64,000 nucleotides of DNA. It comes from Endobacter medicaginis (GTDB lineage: Bacteria; Pseudomonadota; Alphaproteobacteria; Acetobacterales; Acetobacteraceae). The stretch's first letter is position 1, and each line of letters opens with the position of its first letter. Positions 21,571 to 26,687 of this stretch are shown in pieces. A program made the translations under genes and the position numbers. Location of the stretch: NCBI RefSeq assembly GCF_014192375.1, contig NZ_JACHXV010000003.1:1-64000 (forward strand), in the 5' to 3' direction. The notes under the pieces were generated by a model. It searched no databases. It saw only the letters and a program-made list of their open reading frames with translations, and was not told where the DNA came from.

Positions 21571-22914
21571 ATGAAGCTCCGTTTCGCCCCCAGCCCGACC
21601 GGGCTGCTGCATGTCGGCAATGCGCGCCTGGCCCTGATCAACGCCCTCTATGCGCGGCGTCACGGCGCCGATTTCCAGCTCCGTATCGACGACACCGACC
21701 CCGAGCGCTCGCGCCCCGAATACGAGGCGGCGATCCGCGAGGATCTGGGCTGGCTCGGCATCGGCTGGTCGGAGAGTTTCCGCCAGTCCGAGCGTCTGCA
21801 CCGCTACGCCGAGGCGGCCGAGCGGCTGAAGGTGACCGGGCGGCTCTACCCGTGCTTCGAGAGCGCCGACGAGCTGCGCGTCAAGCGCGAGCTGCGGCTC
21901 AAGCAGGGCCGCGCACCCGTCTACGACCGCGCGATGCTCAAGCTCACCGCCGAGCAGCGCGCGCAGGCGGAGGCCAACGGCAAGGTGCCGTACTGGCGCT
22001 TCCGCCTGTCCGACACGGTGATCTCCTGGCCCGACCTGGTCGGCGGTGAGCGTCAGGTGAAGCTCACCGCGGTGTCGGACCCGGTGCTGATCCGTGCCGA
22101 CGGCACGGTGCTGTACGGTTTCGCCTCGGTGGTGGACGATCTCGAAAGCGGGGTCACGCATATCCTCCGCGGCGAGGATCACCTCACCAATACCGGCGTG
22201 CAGATCGACCTCGCCGACGCGCTGGTCGAGGCCGGGGCCGCGCGGCGGCGGCGGTTTCATTTCGGCCATGTGCCGCTGCTGCTCGATTCCGAGGGAGGCA
22301 AGCTGTCGAAGCGCTTCGAGGGGCTTTCGCTGCGCACCCTGCGTCATGACGGTATCCTGCCGGAGGCGCTGGCGGGCTATCTGGCCCGGCTGGGCACGGC
22401 GGATGCGCCGGTCGCGGCGAGCCTCGACGAACTCGCCGGCACCTACGATCTCGGTCGGGTCTCGTCATCTGCGGCCCGGTTCGACATGTCGCATCTCCTC
22501 GCCCTCAATCGCCTGCGGCTGCGCGCGACGCCGTTCTCCGACATCGCCACGCGCCTACCCGAGGGCGCGACCGAGCCGTTCTGGCTGGCGATCCGTGACA
22601 ATATCGACCTGCTCGACGAGGCGCGGCATTGGTGGTCGGTGGTGGCGGGCGACATCGCCGTCCCGGTCGGCGAGGCTGATCCCGCCTTCCTCGCCGAAGC
22701 CGAGGCGCTGCTGCCGCCCGAGCCGTGGGACGAGGGCGCTTGGGGGGCGTGGACGGCGGCGCTGCGACAGGCGAGCGGACGGTCGGGGCGCGCCCTGTTC
22801 CACCCGCTGCGGCTGGCGCTGACCGCCGAGGAACAGGGGCCGGAGCTGCGTCTGCTGCTTCCGCAGATCGGCCGGCAGCGTGTTATCGCCCGTCTGAGGG
22901 CCGCAGCGAGCTAG
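21571..22914 (+). CDS. gltX: Glutamate--tRNA ligase
   Basis: This 447-residue class I aminoacyl-tRNA synthetase charges tRNA with glutamate. The HIGH-type motif reads HVGN (residues 14-17) in FAPSPTGLLHVGNARLAL, the KMSKS-type motif reads KLSKR (244-248), and ILRGEDHLTNT lies between them. Alphaproteobacteria often have two GltX paralogues, one charging tRNA-Gln for GatCAB. Which one this is cannot be told here. The TAG stop lies exactly at the left end of a palindromic element, whose first base is the last base of the stop codon. Confidence 0.94.
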   Translation: MKLRFAPSPTGLLHVGNARLALINALYARRHGADFQLRIDDTDPERSRPEYEAAIREDLGWLGIGWSESFRQSERLHRYAEAAERLKVTGRLYPCFESADELRVKRELRLKQGRAPVYDRAMLKLTAEQRAQAEANGKVPYWRFRLSDTVISWPDLVGGERQVKLTAVSDPVLIRADGTVLYGFASVVDDLESGVTHILRGEDHLTNTGVQIDLADALVEAGAARRRRFHFGHVPLLLDSEGGKLSKRFEGLSLRTLRHDGILPEALAGYLARLGTADAPVAASLDELAGTYDLGRVSSSAARFDMSHLLALNRLRLRATPFSDIATRLPEGATEPFWLAIRDNIDLLDEARHWWSVVAGDIAVPVGEADPAFLAEAEALLPPEPWDEGAWGAWTAALRQASGRSGRALFHPLRLALTAEEQGPELRLLLPQIGRQRVIARLRAAAS

Positions 22915-23057
22915 AGGGTGTTATGAACCCGCGTTTTCTGGCCTGCAAACCGCGCATGTCCTGCGCTTCGATGCTCATGGCCGATCACGGCCACTCCGCT
23001 TCGATGCTCGAAAACGCACGGTTTTCGGCTCAGACTCCGCAAGCTCATAACACCCTC
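22914..23057. repeat. Palindromic element A with 13-bp terminal inverted repeats
   Basis: This 144-base element is bounded by GAGGGTGTTATGA (22914-22926) and its exact reverse complement (23045-23057). The centre (22960-23010) contains the direct repeat CGCTTCGATGCTC twice around a small GGCCGATCACGGCC dyad. That centre is related to the centre of element B at 47454-47596. It contains no gene, and it starts on the last base of the gltX stop codon. Confidence 0.8.
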
Positions 23058-23218
23058 CAGGGTGGCGCCACTCCCAGTTTGTTACGAATTTGACTGTTGC
23101 GTATTACAGTTTCATGCCACCCTTCAGGTGGGCGCAGTGCCATTGACGATTTGATAACGGACGTATCGTAGACCGGAGCGGATGACCCGATGAGGTCAGC
23201 CTGCGGAGTATAAATCGG
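23058..23218 (+). promoter_or_regulatory. A/T-richer control region before the glycosyltransferase pair
   Basis: This stretch is noticeably poorer in GC than the rest of the window and contains no gene. A possible promoter is TTGACG at about 23151 with TATCGT 15 bases later, though the spacing is short. CGGAG lies about 11 bases before the start codon of the following gene. The composition hints at acquired DNA or a strong control region. Confidence 0.35.
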
Positions 23219-24181
23219 ATGGCCAGCGTTCTGGTCGTGACCATGCAGCGTGACGAGGGGGCGATGCTCAGCCGCTGGCTGGCACATTACGCCTCGCTCT
23301 TCAGCATGACCAACCTTGCCATCGTCGATAATGGCTCGACCGACACCATGACCCTCGAACTGCTTGGCTTCGCGGAGCGGTCCGGGGCTCGGGTATTGCG
23401 TCACTATGCGACCGACCTGGATTTTCTCGAAAAAGGGCGGGTGGTCACCGAGGTCATCCACACCCTCGAGGCGGACGCTCATCGTCGTTGGCAACGATAC
23501 GATTTCATCATTCCCGTCGATTGCGACGAGTTGCTCGGCGTGTTCACCCGCGATGGCGTCAGCCTGACACCGGACGACATCCATGCCGAGTTCCATGCCT
23601 GGCGCGGGATCGACCGCGTCCTGCGGGTAGGCATGTCCCTGTTCAACGTGCCCGGCCAGGACGGGTGGTTCTCGCCGAACAGGTCGTTCCACAAGGGCAT
23701 TGTCCCCGGCGGCGAGCTCATGGCGCTCGACAAGGGCTTCCACAGCCCGGTGCTGCGCTCGGGCGACGCCCATGAACGCACGCGACTGACCTATCTGCAC
23801 TATCACAATGCTCCGTTCGCGGTGCTCAGACGCAAGGCTCGCCTCAAGCTCCAGGAGCCCTATGCGGCCTGCACCGATCTCGAGCAGCTGCGCCGATACG
23901 CCCGTGATCCTGCCGTTCCGGGCAATCATCTGATCGCCGACCTGCTGCTCACCGAAGCCGAATACGAGGCGATCTATGACCACGAACTGCGGATCATGGT
24001 GAACCCGGCCAGTCCGACGCTGCTGTATTCGCCGGCGGGACTGGTGCGCTGGGATGCCGAGGCCTATCTCGCGCTCAACCCCGATGTGCGCGAGTACGGG
24101 CTCGGGCCACTCGAGCATTATGTCGCCTGTGGCTGGACGGAAGGCCGCGCTCTGAGTCCCGCCGCCGCCATGAGCGGCTGA
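23219..24181 (+). CDS. Glycosyltransferase (GT2/GT92-like) with C-terminal NPDV module
   Basis: This 320-residue protein has a GT-A fold: VTMQRDEGAMLSRWLAHY at the N-terminus, the nucleotide-sugar contact DNGSTD at 37-42, the DxD-type motif DCD at 101-103, and NVPGQDGWFSP in the acceptor region. It fits the Glyco_tranf_2_4 group of polysaccharide-modifying enzymes. Residues 278-311 form a separate module of the form W-D-x-x-x-Y-L-x-x-N-P-D-V...PLEHY...GWTEGR, known from surface and calcium-binding proteins. No signal or membrane helix is seen. The next gene is a paralogue with the same architecture. Donor and acceptor are unknown. Confidence 0.82.
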   Translation: MASVLVVTMQRDEGAMLSRWLAHYASLFSMTNLAIVDNGSTDTMTLELLGFAERSGARVLRHYATDLDFLEKGRVVTEVIHTLEADAHRRWQRYDFIIPVDCDELLGVFTRDGVSLTPDDIHAEFHAWRGIDRVLRVGMSLFNVPGQDGWFSPNRSFHKGIVPGGELMALDKGFHSPVLRSGDAHERTRLTYLHYHNAPFAVLRRKARLKLQEPYAACTDLEQLRRYARDPAVPGNHLIADLLLTEAEYEAIYDHELRIMVNPASPTLLYSPAGLVRWDAEAYLALNPDVREYGLGPLEHYVACGWTEGRALSPAAAMSG

Positions 24182-24291
24182 ACGCCGCCCTGCCGCCCCT
24201 TCCCGATGCCCAATGCCCGCCGGGTGATGATTGCAGGGGTGGGTGGGCTGCCATAGTCTTCACCCGTCTCTCCTCGACAGGAAAATCAGCT

Positions 24292-25245
24292 TTGTCCGCA
24301 GTCCCCCGAATTCGCGTGGTGGTAATGCAGAAAGACGAAGCGGAGCTTTTGCTTGCCTGGCTCAGTCACTACGGCAACCTGTTCGGCTATCGCAATCTCA
24401 CCATCTACGACAACGGCTCCACGGAGCCACGCACACTGGCCATCCTTCAGCATGCCATGCGCCTCGGCGTCGTCATCTCAACCGGCTACGACCAGCCACA
24501 CGATTTTCATCAGAAGGGCTATCATTTCGCCAACCTGATCCGGGAGTGGGACCGGCAGAGTGACTACGATTTCGCGCTGCCGGTCGATTGCGACGAATTC
24601 CTGGCCGTGTTCGAGGACGACCGGATCTCGACCTCGCGCGACGCCATCCTCGCCGAGCTCAACCGCTATGTCGGTTCCGAGCGTGCCCTGCGGATGGACA
24701 TGTCCCTGTTCAACGTGCCGGGCCAGGAAGGCTGGTTTTCGCCGGACAGGAGCTTTCACAAGGGCATGCTGGCCGCCGGCACGGTGGCAGAGATCGATAA
24801 CGGGCAGCACGAACCCAGGACGATCGCCGGTGGCCACATCACCACCCGACTGACCTATCTGCATCGGCATAACCGGCCGTTCGACGCCTATATCGAGCGC
24901 ACGCGTGCCAAGCTCGATCCGAGCTGTCGCCATCTGACCGACCCCGACGAGATCCGCCGTCTGGCGGACGATCCGCTCGTGCCGGGCAACCATCTGCTGA
25001 GATCCCTGCTGCGCAGCGAGGAGGACTACCACCACCAATACGCGCGGGAGCTCCGCATCCGGGTCGATGACCTGTTTGGCAGCGGCGTCGAACTGGCCGA
25101 CGCAAACGGCCCGATCCACTGGGATACGAACACCTATCTGGCCCGGCACCCGGATGTCCGCCGCCACGAGCAGGGTCCGCTGCACCATTATCTGCGCTTC
25201 GGCTGGCTGGAGGGCCGTGACGTCGGTGCCATGCGCGCGGCCTGA
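24292..25245 (+). CDS. Glycosyltransferase, paralogue of the upstream gene, with NPDV module
   Basis: This 317-residue protein is clearly homologous to the preceding one over its full length: VVMQKDEAELLLAWLSHYG, DNGSTE at 40-45, DCD at 99-101, FNVPGQEGWFSPDRSFHKG, and the C-terminal module from Trp277 (YLARHPDV...PLHHY...GWLEGR). The pair presumably arose by tandem duplication and then diverged, giving related but not identical specificities for a surface glycan. The start is TTG 24292, with AGGAAAA about six to twelve bases upstream. The 110-base gap upstream contains TTGCAG-N17-TAGTCT (from 24231), a possible separate promoter. Confidence 0.82.
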   Translation: MSAVPRIRVVVMQKDEAELLLAWLSHYGNLFGYRNLTIYDNGSTEPRTLAILQHAMRLGVVISTGYDQPHDFHQKGYHFANLIREWDRQSDYDFALPVDCDEFLAVFEDDRISTSRDAILAELNRYVGSERALRMDMSLFNVPGQEGWFSPDRSFHKGMLAAGTVAEIDNGQHEPRTIAGGHITTRLTYLHRHNRPFDAYIERTRAKLDPSCRHLTDPDEIRRLADDPLVPGNHLLRSLLRSEEDYHHQYARELRIRVDDLFGSGVELADANGPIHWDTNTYLARHPDVRRHEQGPLHHYLRFGWLEGRDVGAMRAA

Positions 25246-25275
25246 CGCGCCCGTCTGCCGCCTGCGTCTGGGCGC

Positions 25276-25304
25276 TTGCGCGCCGGCGGGCGCTCCCGCA
25301 TTAA
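25276..25304 (+). promoter_or_regulatory. Candidate promoter of cysS (leaderless)
   Basis: TTGCGC (25276-25281) and CATTAA (25299-25304) are 17 bases apart. Transcription would begin at about 25311, the A of the cysS start codon. No Shine-Dalgarno sequence is present, consistent with a leaderless message. Confidence 0.35.
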
Positions 25305-25310
25305 ACGCGC

Positions 25311-26687
25311 ATGTCCAGCCACAGCCCGGCGCGCCTGCGCCTGCATGACAGCCGCCAACGCCGGATCGTCGACTTCCAGCCGATCGATCCCGGCCATGTG
25401 CGGCTATACTACTGTGGCCCGACCGTCTACGACCTCGCGCATCTGGGCAATCTGCGCGCCAACCTGACGGCCGACCTGCTGGTGCGGCTGCTGCGGGTGC
25501 TGTATCCGCGCGTCACCTATGTCCGCAACGTCACCGACGTGGACGACAAGATCAACGCCCGCGCCGCCGAGCTCGGCATCTCGATCGGCACGCTGACCGA
25601 CGCCACGCTGGCGGACTTCCATGCCGATCTCGCTGCGCTCGGCGTGCTGCCGCCCGATATCGAGCCCTGCGCCACCGCCCATGTCGGCGAGATGATCGCG
25701 ATGATCGCGCGGCTGGTCGAGGATGGTCATGCCTACGAGGCCGAGGGTCACGTGCTGTTCTCGGTGCGCGATTTCCCAGGTTATGGCCAGCTCTCCGGGC
25801 GCGACCCGGAGGCGCTGCTGGCCGGTGCGCGGGTGGAAGTCGCACCCTACAAGCGCGATGGCGGCGATTTCGTGCTGTGGAAGCCATCCCCCGCCGAACT
25901 GCCGGGATGGGACAGCCCCTGGGGTCGCGGCCGGCCGGGCTGGCACATCGAGTGCAGCGCGATGTCGCACCGCTATCTCGGCGAGAGCTTCGACATCCAT
26001 GGCGGCGGCACCGACCTGATCTTTCCGCATCACGAGAACGAGCGCGCGCAGAGCCTGTGCGCGCACCCGCACGGCGAGTTCGCGCGGTTCTGGGTGCACA
26101 ATGCGATGCTGCTCGTCGACGGCGAGAAGATGAGCAAGTCGCTGGGCAACTTCCTCACCATCCGCGACATCCTGGCTCGCGCCCCGGCGGAGGCGATCCG
26201 GCTGCTGCTGATGCGCACCCATTACCGCTCGGTGCTGGATTTCTCCGATGCCGGGCTGATCGAGGCGCGTCGCGAGCTCGACCGTTTCTATCGTGGACTC
26301 GAGGCGCATCCGGGCGTGGTTGCGGGTGCTCTGCCCGACAGCGTGCTCTCGGCCCTGACCGACGATCTCAACACGCCTGCGGTACTGGCGGCGATGCACC
26401 GTCTGGCCGACGCGGCGATCGCCGGCGATGCCCGCGCCGCGTCGGGGCTGAGGGCGGCCGGTGCGCAGCTCGGCCTGCTCGCGCTCGACCCGTCCGAATG
26501 GTTTCGCGGCGGCGAGGATGCGGTCGAGATCGAGGCGGCGATCACCGCGAGGCTGGAAGCGCGCCGTGTACGCGACTTCGCCCGCGCCGACGCGATCCGC
26601 GCCGAGTGGCTCGCCCGCGGCGTGGCGATGGAGGACGGTCCCGCCGGGACCACCTGGCGGCGTGTGCCGGCGGGAGGGACCGCATGA
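25311..26687 (+). CDS. cysS: Cysteine--tRNA ligase
   Basis: This 458-residue class I synthetase is slightly short but complete. It has the zinc cysteine in YYCGPTVYD (Cys35), the HIGH-type HLGN at 44-47, HIECSAMS and GGGTDLIFPHHENE with further zinc ligands, and KMSKSLGN at 273-280. It charges tRNA-Cys in the cytoplasm. No ribosome-binding site precedes ATG 25311. The stop overlaps the trmJ start by four bases, so the two genes form an operon for tRNA function. Confidence 0.95.
   Translation: MSSHSPARLRLHDSRQRRIVDFQPIDPGHVRLYYCGPTVYDLAHLGNLRANLTADLLVRLLRVLYPRVTYVRNVTDVDDKINARAAELGISIGTLTDATLADFHADLAALGVLPPDIEPCATAHVGEMIAMIARLVEDGHAYEAEGHVLFSVRDFPGYGQLSGRDPEALLAGARVEVAPYKRDGGDFVLWKPSPAELPGWDSPWGRGRPGWHIECSAMSHRYLGESFDIHGGGTDLIFPHHENERAQSLCAHPHGEFARFWVHNAMLLVDGEKMSKSLGNFLTIRDILARAPAEAIRLLLMRTHYRSVLDFSDAGLIEARRELDRFYRGLEAHPGVVAGALPDSVLSALTDDLNTPAVLAAMHRLADAAIAGDARAASGLRAAGAQLGLLALDPSEWFRGGEDAVEIEAAITARLEARRVRDFARADAIRAEWLARGVAMEDGPAGTTWRRVPAGGTA

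Follow-up and report, generated by a model that had tools for sequence, protein, structure and literature searches.

The window, a stretch of 64,000 nucleotides from Endobacter medicaginis, contains on its forward strand two consecutive ORFs, GT1 (23219..24181; 320 amino acids, ATG start) and GT2 (24292..25245; 317 amino acids, TTG start). As protein labels, GT1 and GT2 designate these two ORFs and are distinct from the Pfam-type families of the same names. Upstream lies the gene for a gltX-type glutamyl-tRNA synthetase (21571..22914, forward strand; Pfam PF00749 and PF19269) and downstream cysS for cysteinyl-tRNA synthetase (25311..26687, forward strand; Pfam PF01406). Between gltX and GT1 there is a palindromic repeat of about 150 bp (22911..23060), recognized from its arms, its folding and its BLAST copies. 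The two ORFs had originally been predicted to encode tandem glycosyltransferase paralogues, which was confirmed: both are found at the places given, both belong to Pfam family PF13704, and in a pairwise alignment they share 46% identity across 312 aligned residues. GT1 was characterized via its ORF, Pfam, an AlphaFold2 model and fold matches, GT2 via its ORF, Pfam and the alignment to GT1.

GT1 (E 3e-9, 37.6 bits) and GT2 (E 4e-10, 40.4 bits) match PF13704 (Glyco_tranf_2_4) alike, both above the curated gathering score of 27.5 bits. The match spans the N-terminal ~110 residues; the remainder of the GT-A domain and the C-terminal module described below lie outside the Pfam model. The AlphaFold2 model of GT1, calculated with a 46-row alignment as input, has a mean pLDDT of 95.4 and a pTM of 0.91, and residues 1 to about 260 of it have a GT-A fold, the matches of a fold search extending over residues 1 to about 195-266. 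The structures matched were ThuS (Z 13.3), GalS1 (Z 13.0), SunS (Z 12.4), WrtF (Z 11.6) and TarP (Z 10.8), which use other acceptors and are only 8-16% identical to GT1. GalS1 is a GT92 member; the resemblance to it is one of fold only, and the Pfam search with an E limit of 1 did not list the GT92 model. Residues 101-104 of GT1 form a DCDE motif (23519..23530, forward strand), each residue of which is kept in at least 90% of the 46-row alignment and to which the DCDE motif of GT2 (24586..24597, forward strand) is aligned. By analogy to other GT-A families, D101, C102, D103 and E104 are the probable metal/nucleotide-sugar site. H194 of GT1 is conserved in all 46 rows. The GT-A fold and an acidic metal motif, looked for as further features of PF13704, are thus present, the former in the GT1 model and the latter in the 46 rows. 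Residues 205-272 of GT2 gave a weak match to PF20901 (Sf6 terminase small subunit-like), which is below the cut-off, ends before the module and is probably due to chance.

A recent tandem duplication was considered for the origin of the pair but could not be shown, GT1 and GT2 being 45-46% identical versus 49% between GT1 and a gene of another genome (L025). The tree test neither backed nor rejected GT1 and GT2 as sisters (p-AU 0.379). The gene pair itself is ordinary and belongs to a mostly ordinary enzyme family.

The original prediction had also described a common unit at the C-terminal ends of both proteins. This unit, here called the NPDV module, was indeed found, with a length of about 36 residues: in GT1 it is RWDAEAYLALNPDVREYGLGPLEHYVACGWTEGRAL (residues 277-312; 24047..24154, forward strand), identified by profile matches and the helices of the model, and in GT2 HWDTNTYLARHPDVRRHEQGPLHHYLRFGWLEGRDV (25117..25224, forward strand), identified by profile matches. 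It is followed by 8 residues in GT1 and by 6 in GT2 up to the end of the protein. A profile built from 116 module copies of proteins outside the PF13704 subfamily, with no sequence of the window included, gave 48.1 bits for GT1 (E 4e-13) and 47.1 bits for GT2 (E 8e-13; Z = 10,000), while 10,000 shuffled controls attained at most 13.0 bits (E 0.037). The match is therefore far above chance. Family searches with both proteins revealed no Pfam or NCBIfam model that covers the module.

The conserved positions of the module are F/W, Y, NPD, PL, HY, G and EGR; they look structural, as parts of a hydrophobic core and of turns. In the GT1 model the module consists of helices 280-286, 288-292 and 297-305, which are preceded by two short strands. 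The pLDDT is 94-97 over residues 251-270, 96-98 over 271-310 and 81 over 311-320. The pTM of the model weakly suggests that the module is confidently placed relative to the rest of GT1, since with about 44 badly positioned residues a pTM of at most about 0.90 is estimated. When run with the complete model, the fold searches probed mainly residues 1-260, and the GT-A alignments end before residues 277-312. A sequence profile search of the PDB with the module gave just weak partial matches, all to designed proteins and with E values no better than 0.08. The model of a two-copy module array from Bradyrhizobium was poor (pLDDT 49.5).

The family was followed through other genomes in a scan that started from nine aligned members with the module and used patterns from the core, outside the module. 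It yielded 78 loci, a redundant set with many from near species, 76 of them with Acetobacteraceae titles (one of these, L099, is a bog MAG) and two from Bradyrhizobium. The C-terminal module was present in 71 of the 78, namely in 70 by profile pairing and in L052, which was left unpaired there but was listed with the module by other checks. One of the seven exceptions, L061, has a broken reading frame with the module on the second piece; L063, L067 and L069 represent a single gene type of Acetobacter estunensis whose tail has decayed; and L099, L101 and L102 are without it. Among 60 genomes of relatives, eight had a family match, that of E. medicaginis included. These genomes contain seven further unbroken genes with the module (L013, L014, L016, L017, L020, L021 and L023) and two members from other genera without it (L018 and L019). 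In the broken copies of relatives (L024 of G012; L015/L022 of G021) the module is on the last pieces. The breaks in L015/L022, L024 and L061 (stops, a frameshift, or assembly errors) suggest that some copies of the family are dispensable.

The two Bradyrhizobium relatives lack the module, and four plasmid records (two from E. coli, two from Rhizobium) align to the core only, up to residue 249, with 30-32% identity; the E. coli plasmid relatives match PF13704 and, unlike GT1 and GT2, are without the module. The GT-A fold therefore does not need it. Also no module was detected by the module scan in loci L104-L106, and none that was convincing in L183 and L184, two distant matches of viral contigs to the GT alignment.

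Within the subfamily the module and the catalytic core are conserved to about the same degree, with a mean column conservation of 0.557 for the core (247 columns), 0.28 for the linker (18 columns) and 0.551 for the module (36 columns). Pairwise identities of core and module are correlated (Mantel rho 0.55; none of 500 permutations as high). Both analyses were done with 46 of 50 rows, the module-less L099, L101, L102 and L063_5001 having been removed. The modules of GT1 and GT2 are at best 61% and 58% identical, respectively, to glycosyltransferase modules of other genera, versus 44% and 42% to seven copies found on three further proteins of E. medicaginis. From this correlation and this closer likeness it appears that the module descends with its enzyme. 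On the 50-row core tree the presence of the module requires at the fewest two changes. The module behaves like a constant component of the Acetobacteraceae subfamily, but is not one of the GT-A fold. The view that a single copy on two enzymes is something special is not supported. That the module is an integral part in all homologues, which would speak against a tag, is nearly true of the Acetobacteraceae subfamily but not of the relatives in Bradyrhizobium and on the E. coli plasmids.

The module also occurs on other proteins. At E <= 1e-5 it was found in 113 of 150 genomes of the family and in 35 of 299 genomes of the phylum, the genome of E. medicaginis being counted in both. This genome encodes six module-bearing glycosyltransferases and two small proteins with the module. 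Besides GT1 and GT2, the former are a third PF13704 enzyme (on C5), a 1251-residue protein with the families WbsX, GT1 and GT2 (on C1), a WsaF-type protein (on C17) and a protein of families GT2 and GT1 with weak module copies (on C10). The two small proteins (on C5, L010 5008-5772, and on C44, L012 984-1331, both on the reverse strand) carry two C-terminal modules each, and that of L010 has a Pro/Lys-rich N-terminal part; neither matches a Pfam family.

The partners of the module were counted in 55 module-bearing ORFs without the PF13704 subfamily core (family match at E <= 0.001), from loci that were best matches and thus not a random sample. The commonest recognized partners were glycosyltransferases: 27 of the 55 match such a family, 12 of them WbsX and the rest GT1, GT2, WsaF, RgpF or GT61 (one WsaF match being below the cut-off). 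Surface-type families were matched by five (RTX three, Ig-like one, subtilase one) and other families by three (methyltransferase, nucleotidyltransferase and, below the cut-off, sulfotransferase). For 20 no family was found, which is an upper bound because many ORFs are truncated where short loci end. Two of the 55 have a weak PF13704 match below the cut-off. The original statement that the module is repeated in RTX-like and surface proteins was hence borne out by building a profile and listing the partners, although glycosyltransferases turned out to be the commoner carriers. The same unit of 34-36 residues was found with one profile in WbsX, WsaF and GT1/GT2-family proteins and in the RTX-type arrays of Pseudomonadota. 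The array proteins mostly have 2-8 copies, at either end, whereas members of the PF13704 subfamily have one, at or near the C-terminus. No database name was found for the arrays on these proteins, and no account of the NPDV module in the literature as far as searched, that is in titles and abstract openings with few subscription papers covered. A module that is common, has glycosyltransferases as its most frequent recognized partners and is without Pfam or NCBIfam cover in GT1 and GT2 deserves a name and a test. On E. coli plasmid p13QT31-2 (L185 562-4206) a GT2 family protein with one N-terminal NPDV module adjoins a module-less PF13704 enzyme; a methyltransferase gene lies upstream.

We propose as the explanation with the better chances that GT1 and GT2 are paralogous GT-A, probably metal-dependent, envelope-glycan transferases in which the module is fixed and has been present since about the base of the subfamily. 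The proposal is based on computed properties, namely the predicted fold, the presence in the family, the conservation and the co-variation; the fixed placement, the cytoplasmic location, the glycan target and the role of the module at the acceptor side we infer. The GT-A domain would transfer a sugar from a nucleotide-sugar to an envelope glycan in the cytoplasm, the target being most likely of the LPS core/O-antigen type or an exopolysaccharide. The module would be a small three-helix cap, fixed in position on the catalytic domain, present since about the subfamily base and neither a recent nor a freely hanging tag, and may help to form the enzyme's acceptor side or keep it in place.

The glycan target is deduced from the partners of the module and from GT9-type genes beside relatives, not from the neighbours in the window, where the pair is flanked by tRNA synthetases rather than by glycan genes. 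In 24 Gluconobacter/Neokomagataea loci (between L057 and L097) an ORF of the GT9 cluster ends where the glycosyltransferase match starts, and in seven Bombella/Saccharibacter-type loci such an ORF is found about 1.3-1.4 kb away in the opposite orientation; the link was seen only in these other genera, and the label GT9 (heptosyltransferase family) of the ORF cluster is derived from one scanned member. PF13704 is listed for an Acinetobacter LOS outer-core transferase in a part of PMC10327509.

A second, rather doubtful possibility is that the module is a glycan-binding unit, which as a single copy would keep the growing glycan on a transferase and, in arrays on RTX, Ig-like and subtilase proteins, would bind the glycan of the cell surface. 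Proteins of the RTX, Ig-like and subtilase families are usually exported. If those carrying the module are exported too, its occurrence on them as well as on transferases would be explained more economically by a glycan as the common ligand than by a protein scaffold. The composition of the 55 proteins, with glycosyltransferases foremost and the surface-type families among the rest, fits this; the structural look of the conserved positions does not. The NPDV unit could then tentatively be regarded as an undescribed glycan-recognition module common to cytosolic glycosyltransferases and exported RTX, Ig-like and subtilase proteins; single copies or short arrays would retain the growing envelope glycan on the former, and arrays would anchor the latter to the surface glycan of the same cell. 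Should the module bind glycan or position acceptors, this would account together for a component that recurs in many unannotated transferases and RTX-type proteins. With small enzymes and models of high confidence, the role of the module is easily testable.

The original prediction of a docking tag, by which the module would gather several transferases on one protein scaffold, we regard as improbable. The six glycosyltransferases and two small two-module proteins in one genome could have common partners. The module is, however, modelled with high confidence as part of GT1, which was the outcome of the structure prediction suggested as a check of the idea; it varies with the core in a subfamily most of whose loci carry it; it also occurs on proteins of the exported type; and the modules of GT1 and GT2 are closer to glycosyltransferase modules of other genera than to the compared copies of their own genome.

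The place of the pair was compared with other genomes. In 16 of 36 genomes searched, that of the window included, the gltX and cysS matches are adjacent on the same strand; in the other 20 they are separated, lie on different contigs, or one of the two was missing from the matches. The gap between the two matches varies within the family: among the 15 other genomes with adjacent matches it does not exceed 207 bp in 11 and amounts to 535, 631, 897 and 1533 bp in the remaining four. In the window it is about 2.4 kb and contains the palindromic repeat and both glycosyltransferase genes. From the short gap in most of the other genomes we conclude that the pair is probably a later insertion into a gltX-cysS neighbourhood, and this, as far as the sequence searches reach, from within the lineage. 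No close sister species was present in the searched sets. The gap of 1533 bp (G020, L103) is filled by an unrelated gene, presumably, as judged by eye, that of a PQQ-type sugar dehydrogenase.

The palindromic element noted ahead of the pair is real. It has 45-nt arms that are 73% complementary, a folding z of -5.0 and a first CTAG that overlaps the stop codon of gltX. It is dispersed, with 15 mostly partial BLAST matches at 13 places in the genome, its own included, and at two of the 13 places the reverse strand was matched too. Rfam at gathering scores gave no match in 22000-26500. A copy with 96% identity and CTAG at both ends is located at C6:130862-131011; the other copies are shorter or diverged.

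The DNA of the pair is, as had been noticed, A/T-richer than its surroundings: the G+C content is 63.9% for GT1 and 63.3% for GT2, as compared to 68.9% for the window, and only 4.2% and 3.0%, respectively, of 960-bp windows have a G+C content as low. A recent acquisition argued from this alone is rejected, since in 39 of 42 relatives the family gene is also below the G+C content of its own flanks (mean -4.4 points; 42 of 46 rows, with the two rows of the window and two loci under 8 kb left out). The nearest relative of GT1 in the scan, with 49% identity, is from the Acetobacteraceae; Bradyrhizobium follows with 28%. The closest relatives, which for a horizontally acquired island would be expected outside the family, were hence within it. 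Of the acquisition originally hinted at, there are indications of the insertion between gltX and cysS but none of a foreign source. That the pair is a recently acquired foreign island brought with the palindromic element we consider very improbable, since the interrupted gltX-cysS neighbourhood, the repeat and the lower G+C content that favour it are opposed by a G+C deficit usual in the family, a repeat dispersed through the genome, scan relatives that except for the two Bradyrhizobium loci are all Acetobacteraceae, and a lack of phage matches, with only the four plasmid records, similar over the core, to set against this.

In Ameyamaea a family relative from another subclade lies directly after gltX. 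In the 24 Gluconobacter/Neokomagataea loci mentioned above, thrS and infC lie downstream of the glycosyltransferase gene (one representative of each was scanned). The enzyme family thus recurs beside tRNA synthetase genes, thrS in these 24 loci and gltX in the window and in Ameyamaea.
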